Source: Actinomycetota bacterium (GTDB taxonomy: Bacteria; Actinomycetota; Acidimicrobiia; IMCC26256; PALSA-610). From it: 56,060 nucleotides of DNA. The notes below the pieces were generated by a model. That model had not been told where the DNA came from and did no database searches. It saw only the letters and a program-made list of their open reading frames with translations. Each line of letters starts with the position of its first letter. Position 1 is the stretch's first letter. The stretch spans positions 1 to 56,060 of the forward strand of contig PLBO01000074.1 of the NCBI GenBank assembly GCA_003134555.1. Reading direction: 5' to 3'. Below, in pieces: positions 2,829 to 30,789 of the stretch. The translations under genes were made by a program, and so were the position numbers.

Positions 2829-3407
2829 TCAGCCGAGTTTGACGGGCTGCACGACGAACCAAAGGGCCTCATCGGGAGCGATGCCCGGCCCGGGAGGGGT
2901 TGGGCCGTACGCCTGATCAGCGGGGATACCCAGCAAGCGGAGCCCACCAACTTTCATGCCGGGAATGCCGTTCGTCCATCCCGGGATGACGCCAGTAAGG
3001 GGGAACTGAATCGCTTGGCCATGCGCGTAGGACGAATCGAAGAGCGTCCCGGTGCTGCACGCCACACCGATGTAGTTCGCCGTGATCGTCGCACCGGCCG
3101 GGACGACCGCCCCCGTACCGACTTTCAAGTCCTTGATGATCAATTTCGTTGGGGCGGGCCCGATCTGGACAGGGACGTCGGGCGCACCGGGCGGCAAGCT
3201 GCCTTTGCGAGCCACGCACGGCTTTCCCGCCGCCGAACCAGTCACCGCAGAACCAACGGGCGGTGCTGAGGTCGCCGGCGTCGTAGTTGTCGTCGCGGCA
3301 ATCTGAGCACCGGTGTTTTTCGAGCTGGAGCCACATGCCGAAGCCGCAGCGATCAGCGCGACGGCGACGACTGCCATGCGCGCATTCGTGCCCCGTTGAC
3401 CCGTCAC
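2829..3407 (-). CDS. FKBP-type peptidyl-prolyl cis-trans isomerase, lipoprotein
   Basis: This is an exported prolyl isomerase, probably assisting folding outside the membrane. From the GTG at 3407 (AGGAGAG upstream) the product is 192 residues with a hydrophobic signal ending in the lipobox AASAC, then a Thr/Ala/Pro linker. The FKBP domain fills the C-terminal half, with hallmark segments GATITANYIGV, GTLFDSSY, VIPGWTNGIPGMKVGG and AYGPTPPG. The longer frame to 3467 would put a charged stretch before the signal and is unlikely. It is monocistronic. Confidence 0.9.
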   Translation of the reverse strand: MTGQRGTNARMAVVAVALIAAASACGSSSKNTGAQIAATTTTTPATSAPPVGSAVTGSAAGKPCVARKGSLPPGAPDVPVQIGPAPTKLIIKDLKVGTGAVVPAGATITANYIGVACSTGTLFDSSYAHGQAIQFPLTGVIPGWTNGIPGMKVGGLRLLGIPADQAYGPTPPGPGIAPDEALWFVVQPVKLG

Positions 3408-3725
3408 GCCCTCTCCTCGATCGTCGTCAGCGTCGCAGGAGCGTACACACACCCGTCCGGGCCGCAATCACGGATCAGTCGGAACGCATAGTGACTCGAT
3501 CAACTGACCCGACCACACCGCGCGGCACCTCTCGGCCCACGTCGTGTAGGTGAGAGCTGATCCGCTAACCCGTCCAGACCGCGCACACAACGCGCTCGCT
3601 GTCGCCGTCGCACCCCAGCGTGTTCTCTGCGGCTTGTGCCGCTGGCCGAACGAACCCCTACCGGAATCGGTGCGTATTCGCGATTGCAAGCACCGCGCTC
3701 ATCACTCGCCGGATAAAGCCCCACT

Positions 3726-3780
3726 CCCGGCGATCTGGGGCACCCCGGTCGCGTTGTTATGGGGCGCGTCTTCTGGGATA
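3726..3780 (+). repeat. Family A intergenic repeat, copy A4
   Basis: This is one of the best-preserved copies: CCCGGCGATCTGGGGCACCC, then GCGTTGTTATGGGGCGCG, then TCTTCTGGGATAG. It ends 123 bases before the start of the hydrolase-cyclase gene. The remainder of the gap 3408-3903 carries no convincing gene. Confidence 0.85.
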
Positions 3781-3903
3781 GTCGGCGGGGTTCCGAAAGG
3801 TCCCCGGTAGTCCCGTTCCGCGTCCTCGCCGGTCGCCCGCGCGGGTGTTGTTCGGCTCTGTGGCGAGGATGCAGGCGTTGTCGAGGCATGCGACGATGTC
3901 GGG

Positions 3904-5262
3904 ATGGCACCCAAGGTCCGGTACGCCCGCAGCGGTGACGTTCATATCGCTTACGCCGTTGTCGGAGAGGGCCCGATCGACGTCGTGTTCGTCCCAGGTT
4001 TCGTCTCCAACGTCAGTGACAGCCTCGATGCTGGAATCAGCCCGGTCTTTGCGGCATGGTTCGAGCGGCTGTCGCGCTTTGCGCGGGTCATCGTCTTCGA
4101 CAAGCGCGGTACCGGGCTCAGTGACCGTTCGGTCGATGTCGCCGGCCTTGACGTCCGGATGGACGACGTACGTGCCGTCATGGATGCGGTCGGCTCCGAA
4201 CGGGCTGCGTTGATCGGCGGCTCGGAGGGTGGTCCGATGTCGATCCTGTTCGCCGCGACGTTCCCGGAGCGGACCCATTCGTTGACGCTGTTCGGTTCTT
4301 TCGCCAGTTTCGTACGAACTGATGATCACCCGTGGATGCCCACGCTCGAGGAACGCGCCGCTCAGCGTGCGTTGATCGAGCAGTACTGGGGCAGCGGACG
4401 CATCCTGGCGACCTTCTCGCCAGTCGGCGAGGTGAAGGAAGAGGACCTCGAGGCCATCGGCGCTCGGGAGATGGCGGGCGCCAGTCCGGGAGCAGTTGTT
4501 CGGCTGTTGGAAATGGACGAGAACATCGACGTGCGCTCGATCCTGCCAACGATCTCGGTGCCGACCCTGGTCGTGCATGCCACCGGAGACCGGATCGTCC
4601 CGTTCGAGTCTGCTGAGTACCTCGCTCGCCATATCCCGAACGCACGGCTCGTCCCGCTCGACTACGCAGCCCATTTCGCCAGAGAGGCGAGCGGACCGAT
4701 TGTCGACTGGCTCGACGACTGCGAGGAGTTCATCACCGGCGTCCGGCCGGTCGGGTTCGTCGACCGCGTGCTCTCTACAGTGCTGTACACCGACATCGTT
4801 GACTCCACCGCACGCGCCGCGTCGCTCGGTGACGACGCGTGGAAGCAGACCCTTGACCGCCACGACCGGCTCGTCGGACGAGAGAGCGAGCGACACCGAG
4901 GCGTCAACGTGAAGTCGACTGGCGACGGTGTGCTCGCCCGCTTCGACGGTCCCGCACGTGGCGTGGCGTGCGGACTCGCCATCGCCGACGGCGCAGGAGA
5001 CCTCGGTCTCGCGGTGCGGGCCGGTCTGCACACCGGCGAGATCGAGTTACGTGGTGATGACATAGGTGGCATCTCTGCGCATATCGGCGCGCGTGTTGCC
5101 TCGCTCGCCGGTCCAGGAGAGGTGCTCGTGTCGCGCACTGTGCGCGATCTCGTCGCCGGTTCCGGTCTCACCTTCTCCGACCGGGGCGAACACGAGCTCA
5201 AAGGCGTTCCCGACCGCTGGCAGGTCTACGCCGCGTCACGCGGGTCGATCGCTAACTCCTGA
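3904..5262 (+). CDS. Alpha/beta hydrolase fused to class III nucleotide cyclase domain
   Basis: Residues 1-275 form an alpha/beta-hydrolase domain with a nucleophile elbow GGSEGG (Ser107), a probable acid in GDR (Asp229) and a His in YAAHFA (His257). Residues about 290-445 are a class III adenylate/guanylate cyclase domain with metal-binding aspartates in YTDIVDST (Asp297) and KSTGDGVLARF (Asp341). The usual transition-state Asn is replaced by His in SAHIGARV, so cyclase activity is not assured. Such fusions are common in actinobacteria and may couple ligand sensing or hydrolysis to cyclic-nucleotide output. A paralogue lies at 45324-46670. Confidence 0.88.
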   Translation: MAPKVRYARSGDVHIAYAVVGEGPIDVVFVPGFVSNVSDSLDAGISPVFAAWFERLSRFARVIVFDKRGTGLSDRSVDVAGLDVRMDDVRAVMDAVGSERAALIGGSEGGPMSILFAATFPERTHSLTLFGSFASFVRTDDHPWMPTLEERAAQRALIEQYWGSGRILATFSPVGEVKEEDLEAIGAREMAGASPGAVVRLLEMDENIDVRSILPTISVPTLVVHATGDRIVPFESAEYLARHIPNARLVPLDYAAHFAREASGPIVDWLDDCEEFITGVRPVGFVDRVLSTVLYTDIVDSTARAASLGDDAWKQTLDRHDRLVGRESERHRGVNVKSTGDGVLARFDGPARGVACGLAIADGAGDLGLAVRAGLHTGEIELRGDDIGGISAHIGARVASLAGPGEVLVSRTVRDLVAGSGLTFSDRGEHELKGVPDRWQVYAASRGSIANS

Positions 5263-5295
5263 CCGAGGCAGTACACCGGCGACAACCGCCCGCGA

Positions 5296-5352
5296 CCCGG
5301 CGTTCTGTGGCACCCCTAGAGCGTGGTTCGGGGACGCGTCTTCTGGGGCGTC
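5296..5352 (+). repeat. Family A intergenic repeat, copy A5 (with partial second unit)
   Basis: The copy reads CCCGGCGTTCTGTGGCACCC, then GTGGTTCGGGGACGCG, then TCTTCTGGGGCGTC. It is immediately followed (5355-5395) by a second partial unit containing CGTCGTTGTCGGGGCGC and TTTGGGATACC. It lies about 120 bases upstream of the next start codon. Confidence 0.8.
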
Positions 5353-5474
5353 ACCCCTGGCACGTCGTTGTCGGGGCGCACTTTGGGATACCAAGTGCCC
5401 TTCGTCGGAGGACCCGTGCGGGTGGTGGGGCGCGCGGCTTACGGTTGGGGGGTGCCGGCGGGAGTGGTGCTTCG

Positions 5475-8400
5475 TTGACGACTGAGAACGTGGCGATGTT
5501 GTTCACCGACATGGTGGGTTCCACTGCATTGGCGTCGAGCCGGGCACCCGACGCGGCCGACGAATTGCGCCGCGAGCATTTCTCGATCTTGCGCCAGGCG
5601 GTCGCGGAGGCCGGCGGCTTCGAGGTGAAGAACCTGGGCGATGGGCTCATGGTCGTGTTCGCATCGACGTCGGCGGCGTTGTCGTGCGCGGTCGGGATGC
5701 AGCAGGGCATCGAACGCGACAACCGCGCCCGTGGGGTCTCGATCGGTTTGCGGGTCGGGCTGAGCGGCGGCGAAGTCACGGCCGAAGAAGACGACTACTT
5801 CGGCGATCCGGTGGTCGAGGCCGCGCGACTGTGCGCGAGGTGCGAGGCCGGCCAGATCCTCGCGGCGGATGTCGTGCGTGCGATGGCGGGCCGGCGCAGC
5901 AAACACGAGTGCATCAGCGTCGGGTCGTTGGAGTTGAAGGGATTGCCCGACCCGGTCGACACGGTCGCGGTGCGCTGGGAGCCGCTCGGCGGGAACGCGA
6001 CGAATGCGGTGCCGTTGCCGGGCCGTTTGAGCGCGCGTCCCGTGGTGGGTGTCATCGGCCGCGAGACCGAGACGGCCGCGATGTCCGACGCGTTCAAGCG
6101 GGTCGTGGCGGGCGAGGGACGCGAGGTGCTGCTTATCTCGGGCGAGGCCGGGCTCGGGAAGACGACGTTGGTCGCGGAGACTGCTCGCGCGGCTTTCGAT
6201 GCCGGCGCGTGCGTGTTGTTCGGGCACTGTGAAGAGGATCTCGCCACGCCGTACCAGCTCTTCGCGGAGGCGATCGGCCACTACGTCATGCACGCGCCCG
6301 AGGAGCAGCTCGTCGCGCATGTCGCTGCGTACGGGTCGGAGCTGGCCCGTATGGTTCCCGCGTTCGCGAGCAGGATCCCGGACCTCCCGCCGTCGAAAGC
6401 GACGGATCCTGACACGGAACGGTTCTTGTTGTTCGCGGCCGTGGTGGGCCTGTTGGTCGAGCTGTCTCGACAACAACCGGTCGTGTTGGTGCTCGACGAC
6501 TTGCAGTGGGCCGACAAAGCGAGCCTGCAACTGTTGCGTCACGTCATGGCGGCCGAGCAGACGATGCGGCTCCTCGTGCTCGGGACCTACCGGGATGGCG
6601 AGTTGTCGCGCTCGCATCCGTTCTTGGAGACGTTGGCGGCGCTGCGCCGCCAACAAGGTGTTGCTCGCGTCGAGCTGACCGGGCTCGATGACACCGACGT
6701 GATCTCGCTCATGGAGGCGGCCGCCGGTCACACCCTCGACGACGCGGCGATCGGGCTGGCCCACGCCGTGTATCGAGAGACCGACGGCAATCCGTTCTTT
6801 GTCAGCGAAGTCCTCCGGCATTTGACGGAGAGCGGTGCGATCGCGCAAGACGCGAGTGGCCGTTGGGTCGCGCAAGATTCTCTCGACGGAACTGCCTTGC
6901 CCGACAGCGTGCGCGAGGTGATCGGTGCGCGGGTTGGGCGCCTCGGACCAGACGCCGAGCGGATGTTGTCGGTCGCAGCAGTGATCGGCCGCGACTTCGA
7001 TCTCGACGTTCTAGCCCGGGCGACGATGACCTCGGAGGATGACCTCCTCGACATGCTCGACGCGGCCATCGCGGTGGCCCTGGTGCGCGAGGTGGCCGAC
7101 ACGGGTCGTTACAACTTCGCCCATGCGCTGATTCAACGCACCCTCTACGAAGACTTGGGCCCCAACCGTCGAGCGCGTGCGCATCGACAAGTTGGCGAAG
7201 CGCTCGAAGCCCTTTGCGGCGATCGTCCGGGCGCACGGGTGGGAGAACTTGCCCGGCACTGGTTCAGCGCGACCCAACCCTCGGACGTCGCGAAGGCGAT
7301 CAACTACTCGCGCCAGGCGGGCGACTCTGCGCTCGCCGCGCTCGCCCCAGCTGTTGCGCTGCGTTACTACGCGCAGGCCATCGACCTCTACGCCCAAGCC
7401 ACGGACCCCGATCCGATCTTGGAAATCGACCTGGCTATCGGGCTGGGTACCGCCCAGCGCCAGACCGGCGATCCCGCCTTCCGTGACACCCTCCTCGGTG
7501 GTGCCCGCCAGGCTGCGGCGGTCGATGACACCGAGCGACTGGTTGCCGCGGCCCTGGCTAACAACCGTGGTTTCTTCACGGCCATGGGCGTCCAGGACCT
7601 CGCCAAGATCGAGATCCTTGAGCTGGCGCTCGACCGGCTCCCGGTCGACAACCCCGATCGGGCGCTCGTGCTCGCCACTTTGTGTTTGGAGCTCACCTAC
7701 GGGAGTTCACTTGAACGCCTCCAACCTCTCGCGGATGAAGCGATCGCGATCGCCATGGCCTCGGGAGACGACACCGTCATCGTGCGCGTCCTCAACGATG
7801 TCGCCCAACCGCTTCGAGTGCCGGTGCTGCTCGGACGGTTGCTGACCCTCTCGGCCGACGCCCTGGCTCTGGCAGAGAACGTCGGTGACCCGGCACTGCT
7901 GTTCTGGGCCGCGCACAATCGCACGCTGGCCCTGACGTGCGCGGGAGAGATCGGCGAGTGTGACCGCTTCCGCGAGATCATGGAGTCGGTGGCCAAGGAG
8001 GTCGGCGACCCGACCCTGCACTGGATGAACACCATGCACTGCGCTGGGTGGGCGCTGATCGCCGGAGACAGCGACCGGGCAGAACAGCTCGCCAAGGAAG
8101 CCTTGCAGATCGGCGCCGACGGCGGTCAGCCCGACGTTGCCGCCACCTTCGGCGCACAGCTCATACATGTCAACTGGCAACGGGGCACACTGAGCCGACT
8201 CTTGCCCGGCGTCGAACAGGGGGTTGCCGAGTACCCCGGGATCCCCGCGTTCGCCGGCACATTGGCAGTGGCGTATCTAGAAGCAGACCGCACCGATGAC
8301 GCCCATCACCTATTGGCCGAGTTCGCGACCACCGATTTCGATCTCCCGGTCGACCTGAACTGGATCTCCGGAATGCTTCGGTACGCCGACGTCGCGATCG

Positions 8401-28282: not shown

Positions 28283-28566
28283 CCATCAGCGCGAAGCCGG
28301 TCCGATACCTCCACACGATCGTGCACAAGGCGCTCACCGACGCCGTCGACGACGGCCTGCTTCAGTCCAATCCGGCCGATCGGGCCAAGGCGCCGAAGCC
28401 GGGACGGTCCTCCAACCGCGAGCTCCGCTTCTGGGAGCCCCATCAGCTGGCCCGGTTCTTGCGCCACGTGCAGGGAACACCGCTGCAGCCGCTCTGGCAC
28501 CTGGCTGCGTTCACGGGAATGCGCCGGGGCGAGCTCATCGGGCTGCGCCGGGGCGACATTGACTAA
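28283..28566 (+). pseudogene. Tyrosine recombinase (phage-type integrase) fragment, 5' part
   Basis: The reading ISAKPVRYLHTIVHKALTDA, LLQSNPADRAKAPKPG and LWHLAAFTGMRRGELIGL covers the end of the core-binding domain and the start of the catalytic domain with its first catalytic Arg (TGMRRGE). It stops at TAA after GDID, two bases before the transposon target duplication. The N-terminal domain and the rest of the catalytic domain (RHRY) are missing here; a further 3' shred follows the transposon at 30706. Confidence 0.8.
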
Positions 28567-28567
28567 C

Positions 28568-28575
28568 AAAACAAG
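28568..28575 (+). repeat. Left 8-bp target-site duplication of the IS1595-type element
   Basis: AAAACAAG directly precedes the inverted repeat and recurs exactly at 30698-30705. Eight bases is the size known for IS1595-family insertions. Confidence 0.9.
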
Positions 28576-28742
28576 GGGAACTATCCCCTAGAGGGCTGTA
28601 GCCTGGCCCCACCTTGGCAAGGTTGCCCCGAATCCGCGCCGATCTCAGCCCCGCGTGAGGCGGCTGAAAATACTCAAACGCTGGGAGGCGATGATCTACC
28701 ACGACCGCCCGCGCCCGGTCTTAGGGGCGCTCTATGAGCGGG

Positions 28743-29543
28743 TTAGGCGAGTCGGTCGAACGGTCGCAAGGCGTTGATCAGTTTGCGCGTCCCGTCGAGA
28801 ATCAGGTCCCGGAATCCTTCTACCCAGAGACCGCCGTCCGGAAAGTGACTGTCCTCGATGACTATGAGCGGGGAGCCTTGAATCTTCACGTCCACGGCGT
28901 CATCGGGGAGTCCGAAGACTTCTGCGTCGTGCTCAAGGCCCGCCATCGCGTCGAGGTCAAGATTCCGGAACAGAATGAGATCACCGTTTGTGATCCGGCA
29001 ACTGCCAGTTGGCTCTCGGAGCAGGCTGGCGACGACCGGGAGCTTCGCGTGTGCGTCGGCGTTTCGGAGTCGGTTGAGCACAGCGAGGGGATGCCCGTTA
29101 GATTCGTTGGCACCGAGATCATCCGGTTGGTTCACCTTGATGAGTGCGACCGCGTCGGGGTGCATCTCACGCGTATAGGAGTTCCACCGTTCCCGGTCCT
29201 TGTATCGCTGTTGGTTCTCCCCCTTGATCGACGGCTCCCAGACACCCTTCCAGAAGATCGGATAGGCGACACTGCGGCGCTTCTTGGCAGGTACGAGTGC
29301 GGCGGCGAGATGGTCCAATCCGGATCGCATGTTGTAGAGAAAATCAGCGAGCATGAGCGCGATGTCGTCGTGGGGTTGTTCGGTGAATTGGAGCCGCCAT
29401 CGAACCTTCTGCTTCTGTCCCTCCATCCGTTTGCGCACCGCGTACGGGTGGCGAGCGCAGTAGTCGGCGATTGCGGTTTCAGCATCGACGAGGTGTTTTT
29501 CAGCCCGGTCGATCTTGAGATCGTAGGACCGTTTCTCGCTCAC
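28743..29543 (-). CDS. HEPN-like passenger protein of the IS1595 element
   Basis: The 266-residue protein is mostly helical at its N terminus, with a charged first helix and then FLYNMRSGLDHLAAALV, in which Arg73-x4-His78 matches the RNase motif of HEPN domains. A second R-N-x3-H is present in NRLRNADAHAKLP (Arg160, His165). The C-terminal third is beta-rich. No transposition role is obvious. It is divergent from the 63-aa gene with only 25 bases between the starts, so they share a promoter region. HEPN assignment is inference from motif and helical context. Confidence 0.6.
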   Translation of the reverse strand: MSEKRSYDLKIDRAEKHLVDAETAIADYCARHPYAVRKRMEGQKQKVRWRLQFTEQPHDDIALMLADFLYNMRSGLDHLAAALVPAKKRRSVAYPIFWKGVWEPSIKGENQQRYKDRERWNSYTREMHPDAVALIKVNQPDDLGANESNGHPLAVLNRLRNADAHAKLPVVASLLREPTGSCRITNGDLILFRNLDLDAMAGLEHDAEVFGLPDDAVDVKIQGSPLIVIEDSHFPDGGLWVEGFRDLILDGTRKLINALRPFDRLA

Positions 29544-29568
29544 TCCAATCGCCTACGCTGGGAGTCTG

Positions 29569-29760
29569 ATGCCGGACAAGGAACCGAAGCGACGCGACAG
29601 GCTCGCCCGTGAAGGCGAACCGTCACAACGCACCGAGGAAGGCTTGGAGATCCCCGTACCCGAACGTGACGAGGTGCTCGGCGCGCTCGGGAAGGCGATC
29701 AGGAAGCGTCCTTCCGAACCACCGCCGCGAGGAAGGCGCCGGTCATCCCGAGGCCAATAG
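29569..29760 (+). CDS. 63-aa charged passenger protein of the IS1595 element
   Basis: The small protein is strongly charged, beginning MPDKEPKRRDRLAREGEP and carrying EIPVPERDEVLGALGKAIRK. Short proteins with an EIPVP(K/E)R motif followed by a helix are common near mobile genes and have no assigned function. It starts 25 bases from the HEPN-like gene on the opposite strand, and its last 62 bases overlap the transposase 3' end tail to tail. It could be a regulator or antidote of its neighbour; this is untested. Confidence 0.65.
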   Translation: MPDKEPKRRDRLAREGEPSQRTEEGLEIPVPERDEVLGALGKAIRKRPSEPPPRGRRRSSRGQ

Positions 29761-30649
29761 CGTCGCGGTTGTTGTAACGGAACGCGTACTCGTCCAAGTA
29801 CGACTGAAGGTGCTTGGTCGAAACGGCGTGGTAGGTGCCGCCGATCCCGCGCTTCACGGTCGCCCAGAAACCTTCGATCGTGTTCGTGTGCACATCTCCG
29901 CTCACGTATACGCCTTGCGAGTGGTTCACGCGGTCATGCGCGTATCCGAGGTCTTCCAGGTCGTTGTAGGAGCGCATCTCGTCGGTGAAGACGGTCGTTG
30001 CGGGGAGGATGTGCATCTTCGCTCGCGGGATGAGCGTGTCGGCCTTCGTGTCGGCGACGACCTTGGCGACCACGCGCCCGTGCTTGCCATCGGTACCGCG
30101 TTGCACCATGCCGTGTACGGGTGTCTTAGAGACGGCGCCACGGCCCGCGTGCGGGCGCTTGGCTTCGTGCTTCCACTTGTCCTTACCACCGACGTACATC
30201 TCGTCCATCTCGACTACGCCGGACAGGAACGTCTCGTCCTGGTCGAGCATGGAGCGGATCTGCTTGAACATGCGCCACGCCGTCTTGTAGGTGACTCCGA
30301 TCTCCCGCTCCAACTGCTTGGCGGAGATCCCGCACCGAGTGCTCGCCATGAGGTAGATCGCGTCGAACCACAGTTTGAGAGACGTTGCCGATCCCTCAAA
30401 GATCGTGCCCTTCATCGGGTGCTCATGGTGCCCACAGAACTGGCAGGTGTACGACGGCCGCGAGGCGTCCCGGTGGTGCTTCGTGACCTTCTGGCATGTC
30501 GGGCAGTGAATGCCGTCCGGGTACAGCGAGACAACGAGGTACTCAAGACACGTCGCGTCGTCAGGAAACATCTCGTCCCACTCAAAGCGGGTGCAGCGTG
30601 ACTCAGAAGCCGAGGACCGGCGGGGCTTGTTGCGATCTACCTTCGACAT
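29699..30649 (-). CDS. IS1595-family (ISXO2-like) transposase
   Basis: The 316-residue transposase has an N-terminal zinc ribbon (CPTC at 49-52, CQFC at 69-72), a helix-turn-helix region (GISAKQLEREIGVTYKTAWRM) and the ISXO2-like catalytic domain: Asp149 in VEMDEMYVGGK, Asp223 in VFTDEMRSY, and NTIEGFWATVKRG (Glu259) followed by YLDEYAFRYNNR. All blocks are intact and length is typical. It begins 48 bases inside the right inverted repeat. Confidence 0.95.
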   Translation of the reverse strand: MSKVDRNKPRRSSASESRCTRFEWDEMFPDDATCLEYLVVSLYPDGIHCPTCQKVTKHHRDASRPSYTCQFCGHHEHPMKGTIFEGSATSLKLWFDAIYLMASTRCGISAKQLEREIGVTYKTAWRMFKQIRSMLDQDETFLSGVVEMDEMYVGGKDKWKHEAKRPHAGRGAVSKTPVHGMVQRGTDGKHGRVVAKVVADTKADTLIPRAKMHILPATTVFTDEMRSYNDLEDLGYAHDRVNHSQGVYVSGDVHTNTIEGFWATVKRGIGGTYHAVSTKHLQSYLDEYAFRYNNRDAIGLGMTGAFLAAVVRKDAS

Positions 30650-30697
30650 GCCCTGATTCTAGGACGAATCGGTACAGCCGTCAAGGGGATAGTTCCC

Positions 30698-30705
30698 AAA
30701 ACAAG
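30698..30705 (+). repeat. Right 8-bp target-site duplication
   Basis: AAAACAAG, identical to 28568-28575, immediately follows the right terminal repeat. Confidence 0.9.
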
Positions 30706-30789
30706 CGGCTGTCGATCAGCACAACAATTCCCGATCAACCAAGATTTCTTGACGGAACAACCTTCCAGGACACTAGTGCGCTGGTTTGA
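30706..30789 (+). pseudogene. Tyrosine recombinase fragment, 3' of the transposon
   Basis: Removing the transposon and one duplication joins GDID-stop-QNK to KRLSISTTIPDQ and DGTTFQDTSALV. NKRLSI fits the strand that follows the DID segment in integrases. Because TAA already precedes the target site, the integrase was probably dead before the transposon arrived. Confidence 0.5.

Follow-up and report, generated by a model that had tools for sequence, protein, structure and literature searches.

Insertion sequences of the IS1595 family are known as carriers of passenger genes. Among other mobile elements, transposons of the Tn3 family carry toxin-antitoxin pairs, including a HEPN-MNT pair in TnSod9 (PMC7157771). 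In HEPN proteins the motif lies where helix 3 ends, an acidic residue is close to it on helix 2, and some HEPN families complete the active site from elsewhere in the fold (PMC3710099). Our search of a library of open-access papers retrieved nothing on HEPN cargo or on a two-gene module of the kind described below in IS1595 elements. The element analysed here comes from an Actinomycetota bacterium (Acidimicrobiia, GenBank assembly GCA_003134555.1) and lies in the window, by which we mean the whole stretch of 56,060 nucleotides of contig PLBO01000074.1 under study.

The toxin-antitoxin pairs of Tn3 transposons would seem to be the nearest precedent for its cargo. As in the Tn3 family and TnSod9, a pair of genes lies near the transposition genes and forms part of the transposon; in contrast with TnSod9, the transposon belongs to another family, the partner is unrelated, the two genes are in divergent order, and the effector is far more variable than its partner. 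With HEPN-MNT pairs in general it shares a HEPN-like gene carried by mobile DNA together with a partner gene, whereas here the partner is a peptide of 41-63 aa instead of an MNT nucleotidyltransferase and the genes point apart. Compared with the IS1595 family, the transposase domain, zinc ribbon, inverted repeats of about 25 bp, 8-bp duplication and presence of passengers are all familiar; the difference is that elements of the window type carry a recurrent two-gene module, even a non-autonomous one (L068) that holds the pair alone. Of the features that characterize type II toxin-antitoxin systems, we found a conserved effector adjacent to a small partner (15 of 30 family members in the phylum sample) and no co-transcribed operon. 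Divergent genes are not the usual toxin-antitoxin order. The transposon type and the fold are already known, and we did not find the protein family, its partner or their recurrent carriage by IS1595 elements in the profile libraries and open-access papers searched.

A complete IS1595 element in the window

The element occupies positions 28576-30697 (2,122 bp) and is complete, as a previous sequence-only reading had described it. Its 25-nt terminal inverted repeats, the left one (GGGAACTATCCCCTAGAGGGCTGTA) at 28576-28600 on the forward strand and the right one at 30673-30697 on the reverse strand, are complementary at 23 of 25 positions, and they are bordered by two copies of the target-site duplication AAAACAAG (28568-28575 and 30698-30705) that match at 8/8 positions. 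An exhaustive search around the cargo for an 8-bp duplication combined with inverted ends yielded this pair as the sole result for the window; ends nearly identical to its left end occur in the L054 element, from Candidatus Microthrix sp., and similar ones in L045. The full-length transposase (316 aa; 29699-30649, reverse strand) covers the whole of Pfam profile PF12762 (DDE_Tnp_IS1595, ISXO2-like; E 7e-46), contains a zinc ribbon (PF12760, E 2e-7) and reaches 213 bits (E 4e-63) against the NCBIfam model transpos_IS1595 (NF033547), whose cut-off is 75. An ISXO2-like DDE transposase, terminal inverted repeats and an 8-bp target duplication place the element in the IS1595 family. It had also been taken for a recent and active element; the perfect duplication supports the first attribute, but the second is not supported because the element is single-copy, the genome holding one copy of the 266-aa cargo protein and one of this transposase, whose next relative in the same genome is 57% identical.

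When the flanks are joined across the element, they produce a tyrosine-recombinase-like reading frame, ...GMRRGELIGLRRGDID*QNKRLSISTT..., which corresponds to a gene fragment at 28321-28566 plus 30706-30789. Since the stop codon directly precedes the insertion point, the target was probably a pseudogene already, unless this stop codon arose later.

Two divergent genes that recur as a module

Between the left end and the transposase lie two open reading frames, as previously described: one of 266 aa, with a GTG start, on the reverse strand (28743-29543), and a basic, charged one of 63 aa on the forward strand (29569-29760), their start codons separated by 25 bp (29544-29568). Judged by comparative sequence analysis, both are genuine genes, because the larger has relatives and the smaller is conserved and under purifying selection. 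A single-sequence search with the 266-aa protein across 396 genomes of the phylum gave matches in 20, the window genome included, with 24-40% identity in the other 19; a profile search extended the family to 30 genomes. Mean column identity in the alignments of this family is only 22-28%. Pfam, NCBIfam and PHROGs contained no match to the 266-aa protein, PADLOC gave a noise-level one (CARF_m2, E 0.009), and none of the 30 members scanned matched a Pfam, NCBIfam, PHROG or PADLOC model above noise level, nor any HEPN family of Pfam or NCBIfam, libraries that are both incomplete. Scanning genome contigs with the 266-aa protein as single query also returned no match, the family being too diverged for such a scan, in contrast to the profile and small-protein searches, which were successful.

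Several relatives of the large gene immediately follow an IS1595 transposase gene and share its direction, and upstream of many relatives, on the opposite strand, is a short reading frame sharing SQxTxKGLEIPVP. These small proteins, 41-63 aa long and without a family in Pfam or NCBIfam, follow the consensus REGEPSQxTxKGLEIPVPxRxDFFGxLDKxxxK, in which Q, T, G, E, I, P and P are invariant among 12 aligned sequences; the window copy matches the family profile with an E-value of 6e-22. Pooled over ten loci, pS was 0.60 and pN 0.23, so that the small gene encodes a protein under purifying selection. Most relatives keep the two start codons 14-30 bp apart, with the genes pointing away from each other. 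In the window, a -10-like box (TACGCT, 29554-29559, forward strand) precedes the ATG of the small gene by 15 bp, and a TANNNT hexamer occurs at -20 to -14 of this ATG at 9 of 18 loci, mostly at exactly -15, against 1.2 expected in shuffled sequences and 0 of 5000 shuffles reaching that number, a count that serves as an indication and carries no formal probability, since the position was picked after the sequences had been seen and the loci are not all unrelated. A TAGAAT at -15 is present in L134 too. The -10 box of Actinobacteria is usually TANNNT, and such a placement is typical of leaderless transcription there. The position of TACGCT would thus fit leaderless or very short-leader transcription of the small gene. 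The possibility that the 63-aa frame is a chance antisense reading frame is ruled out by its conservation, the -10 box and the pS/pN values.

The sequence-only reading had suggested looking for the pair in related elements, and it is present in many of them. At least ten elements enclose the large gene within inverted ends flanked by a perfect 8-bp duplication: that of the window and those of L045 (2,037 bp), L046 (1,965 bp), L054 (2,870 bp), L070 (2,345 bp), L094 (2,926 bp), L102 (2,777 bp), L106 (2,377 bp), L134 (2,283 bp, duplication 8/8) and L068 (1,270 bp, 3296-4565; ends 21/22, duplication 8/8). The small gene is present in eight of the ten and missing from L102 and L106, both with more distant transposases. 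In L134 the pair is inverted with respect to the transposase and still divergent, and L068 consists of the pair without a transposase. The pair of 266-aa and 63-aa genes is mobile as one unit. It constitutes a conserved module and is no chance arrangement confined to a single locus. The same cargo occurs in two different genomes at L054 and L055.

The association was recovered from either gene. Scanning a collection of genomes from 84,980 species with the small-protein alignment alone gave 13 loci, ten of which adjoin a HEPN-like gene, one of these a remnant. Conversely, the large-protein profile gave 30 loci in the even phylum sample, eight of them with an IS1595 transposase within 1.5 kb; the small gene was found at all eight and at 7 of the 22 loci not linked to a transposase. 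Pairs without a transposase are found at L030, L035, L060 and L068. We considered whether such loci might all be remnants, an idea refuted by L068, which is an intact non-autonomous element. The ends of L060 match at 19 of 22 positions, and a search there for a clean duplication found none; this is also the only locus where the two genes are co-directional, nearly all other pairs being divergent. Decay is one-sided at L042, L056, L057, L082 and L083, where the large gene is truncated or frameshifted and the small one open, and a Rubrobacter genome (G300) has three small-gene loci, two of them with broken HEPN-like genes.

Some elements contain other cargo. Three loci have a transposase and the small gene and no detectable HEPN relative (L059 694-4432, L061 3327-6575 and L063 3998-5200); two of them, L059 and L061, are bounded by ends and duplications, with XRE-type regulator genes as cargo. 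A possible GAF-type gene and a short reading frame (3843-4271) containing an RNxxxH motif are likewise present in L059. Upstream of the transposase in L054, a gene on the reverse strand (5268-6062) reads like an NYN/PIN-type RNase (MEARVYIDGFNLYYG...), so that one small transposon may hold two predicted RNases. In L102, a possible ribbon-helix-helix protein is encoded between the transposase and the HEPN-like gene (3294-3515, reverse strand). In L106, within another IS1595 element, a charged reading frame of 65 aa (3658-3855, reverse strand) overlaps the start of the HEPN-like gene divergently; it is not homologous to the small family and is possibly an analogous partner. We sought an alternative divergent small gene in the other viral-contig relatives as well, and L106 was the only plausible case.

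Predicted fold and candidate active site of the large protein

The model of the window protein (pLDDT 81.5, pTM 0.82) has helices at 6-30, 59-82, 152-165 and 241-263; two shorter ones lie between the second and third of these, and strands are placed between helices 1 and 2 and between helices 3 and 4. A relative from L053, a sister element whose transposase is 65% identical to that of the window, gave a model of higher confidence (pLDDT 88.8) with the same order of elements. HEPN domains were the best match to both models in comparisons with PDB chains, in which helical bundles with Z below about 13 may merely share an arrangement of helices and middling values arise by chance: the window model ranked 5yep_C first, the HepT toxin of a HEPN-MNT pair (Z 7.8, 121 residues, 3.7 A), and another HEPN domain fourth (2hsb, Z 6.9), while for the L053 model the first three chains were HEPN (4nqf, Z 9.8 over 141/151 residues; 8yuf, 8.4; 8xdj, 8.0), followed by 7bxo, 7ae6, 7ae9 and 7ae8 (Z 7.5-7.8), the first designed helical bundle (6egc) reaching Z 6.7. 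Foldseek found no significant match in the PDB for either model, and a sequence-profile search against solved structures returned none. We take these comparisons as support, short of proof, for a predicted HEPN-like fold consisting of a four-helix bundle with a beta-sheet insert, and they agree with the fold proposed beforehand from the sequence. Like the HepT/MntA toxins (SO_3166, 5yep), the large protein has a predicted four-helix fold, a His ending helix 3 and an acidic residue on helix 2; it differs from HepT in being twice as long, in its beta-sheet insert, and in having its Arg on helix 2, whereas the HepT Arg lies five residues before the His.

The proposed RNase motif, Arg73-x4-His78, fared less well. 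Arg73 is invariant in 47/47 aligned sequences, but position 78 is H in only 29/47 (here and below, the 47 sequences are the rows of two overlapping alignments, 30 + 17, the distinct proteins being somewhat fewer), and both residues lie on helix 2, away from the end of helix 3. Also invariant are D163 and H165 (47/47); position 77 (D77 in the window protein) is acidic in 47/47, and N71 is conserved in 45/47. Helix 3 ends at residue 165 in the window model and at 178 in that of L053, and the invariant His is at 165 and 180, respectively. Arg73 is therefore probably important and His78 is not, and Arg73-x4-His78 is unlikely to be the active site as far as the alignments indicate; mutating H78 would be the wrong test, because the invariant D163-x-H165 occupies the HEPN motif position. 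Residues 160-165 of the window copy, R160-N-A-D-A-H165, form a textbook RNxxxH, with R160 in 1/30 sequences: a conserved Arg in the canonical Rx4-6H position is absent from the family, R160 being private to this copy. The window protein deviates from the family also at K164 (A), G66 (A) and Y141 (D). AbiV and AF0298-like HEPN proteins, whose active site is believed to be made complete by another part of the fold (PMC3710099), likewise do not have both R and H in the usual place; in AbiV-like proteins R is kept and H has moved to an insert, whereas in the large protein H is kept and R has apparently moved to helix 2.

Possible functions of the module

The reading that we favour, tentatively and short of calling it probable, is that the large protein is a HEPN-type RNase effector which, with its small partner, serves the element as addiction or anti-phage cargo. 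One-sided decay, recurrence of the module, the ranking of HEPN chains first in the structural comparisons and the invariant site residues speak for it, although the one-sided decay could merely reflect the fivefold larger target offered by the large gene. Under this reading the large protein would cut RNA at a composite catalytic site that brings together Arg73 and Asp77 of helix 2 with Asp163 and His165, where helix 3 ends. The small protein would be expressed from a separate promoter located between the start codons and would restrain the effector or direct it, its conserved T-x-K-G-x-E-I-P-x-P motif probably docking close to the conserved site. Loss of the element, or expression upset by a phage, would then lead to RNA cleavage in the cells concerned, favouring persistence of the element or protecting the population. 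The sequence-only reading had already interpreted the cargo as a possible HEPN-type RNase with a small partner; the HEPN-like fold and the recurrence of the pair bear this out in part, the assignment of the motif to His78 is wrong, and the toxin-antitoxin or defence function itself is what we infer. The partner may be an antitoxin, a guide or a transposon factor.

A more specific version, unlikely to hold in all its parts, describes a transposon-borne addiction or defence module of a new kind, in which a hypervariable HEPN RNase, with its catalytic Arg shifted to helix 2, is restrained by a peptide of 41-63 aa that binds the invariant site through its E-I-P-x-P motif. Such a peptide could act on effectors that share no more than about 25% identity, and this would account for the swapping of effectors while one partner is kept; if the partner does restrain such different effectors, it would be an unusually general inhibitor.

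The alternative that survives best, in our judgement rather unlikely, assigns the small protein to the chassis of the transposon, where it would regulate or assist transposition or act through a transcript antisense to the 3' end of the transposase, the HEPN-like gene being exchangeable cargo, perhaps a lone anti-phage effector. In the window the 3' ends of the small gene and the transposase overlap convergently by 62 bp, the three loci with transposase and small gene have no detectable HEPN relative, and most HEPN-like relatives in viral contigs have no small gene. Divergence points the same way. Across 11 elements, the transposases are on average 57% identical in pairwise comparison, the small proteins 42% and the large proteins 25%; identities of the small protein track those of the transposase (rho 0.40) and those of the large protein track neither (rho about 0; 0.01 with the small gene), but the pairs are non-independent, and alignments at around 25% identity approach saturation, so that the lack of correlation says little. 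The transposases of L046, L056 and L083 are 75-77% identical and their large proteins 19-25%, two of the three large genes being broken and only partly aligned. These values suggest that the large gene is exchanged or fast-changing while the transposase and small gene stay conserved, and the small protein may not be a dedicated antitoxin, because its divergence tracks the transposase and it occurs with other cargo. Against a role in the chassis stand the pairs free of a transposase (L030, L035, L060 and L068) and the inverted pair of L134, in which the small gene no longer overlaps the transposase end.

A role of the large protein as an RNA-binding regulator without catalytic activity, limiting expression of the transposase or cargo as proposed for the motif-less MtlR, is improbable in our view. 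The canonical Rx4-6H motif is not conserved as such, and non-catalytic HEPN domains as well as toxic motif-less HEPN proteins have been described (PMC3710099). However, R73, the acid at 77, D163 and H165 are invariant despite the low mean column identity of the family, as is to be expected of an active site, and family members occur in phages and on a plasmid with no transposase close by. Still more doubtful is a non-HEPN identity of the large protein, as an enzyme or a binding protein whose helical bundle merely resembles HEPN and whose R, D, D, H site serves something other than RNA cleavage: the negative Foldseek and sequence-profile searches and the large beta-sheet insert would agree with this, but nearly all top ranks of the L053 model are HEPN, with a clear lead over other bundles, and the top rank of the window model is HEPN as well. 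Ordinary hitch-hiking, in which an IS1595 element happened to pick up two unrelated genes, might be suggested by the general tendency of the family to carry passengers and by the single window copy, but it is very improbable and already refuted as regards the conservation of the pair by at least ten elements, each with ends and duplications of its own, whose HEPN genes are very diverged, by the conserved spacing and -10 box, and by protein-level selection on the small gene.

Through this module an abundant insertion-sequence family is linked to a predicted RNase effector left unnamed by annotation libraries, and the ten or more elements make a compact natural set for asking how small transposons persist.

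Occurrence in phages and on a plasmid

Apart from transposons, members of the large-protein family are found in viral contigs, in the Gordonia phages Samba and ZiggyZoo, and on plasmid pMSPYR102, those of the phages and the plasmid having no transposase nearby. This distribution is in keeping with a function in conflicts with phages or among elements and points to a conflict biology that can be tested directly. Phage accessory genes often sit between other genes on the opposite strand. In Samba, the family member is gene 32 (L119 3776-4603), located between minor tail genes and encoded on the strand opposite to them.
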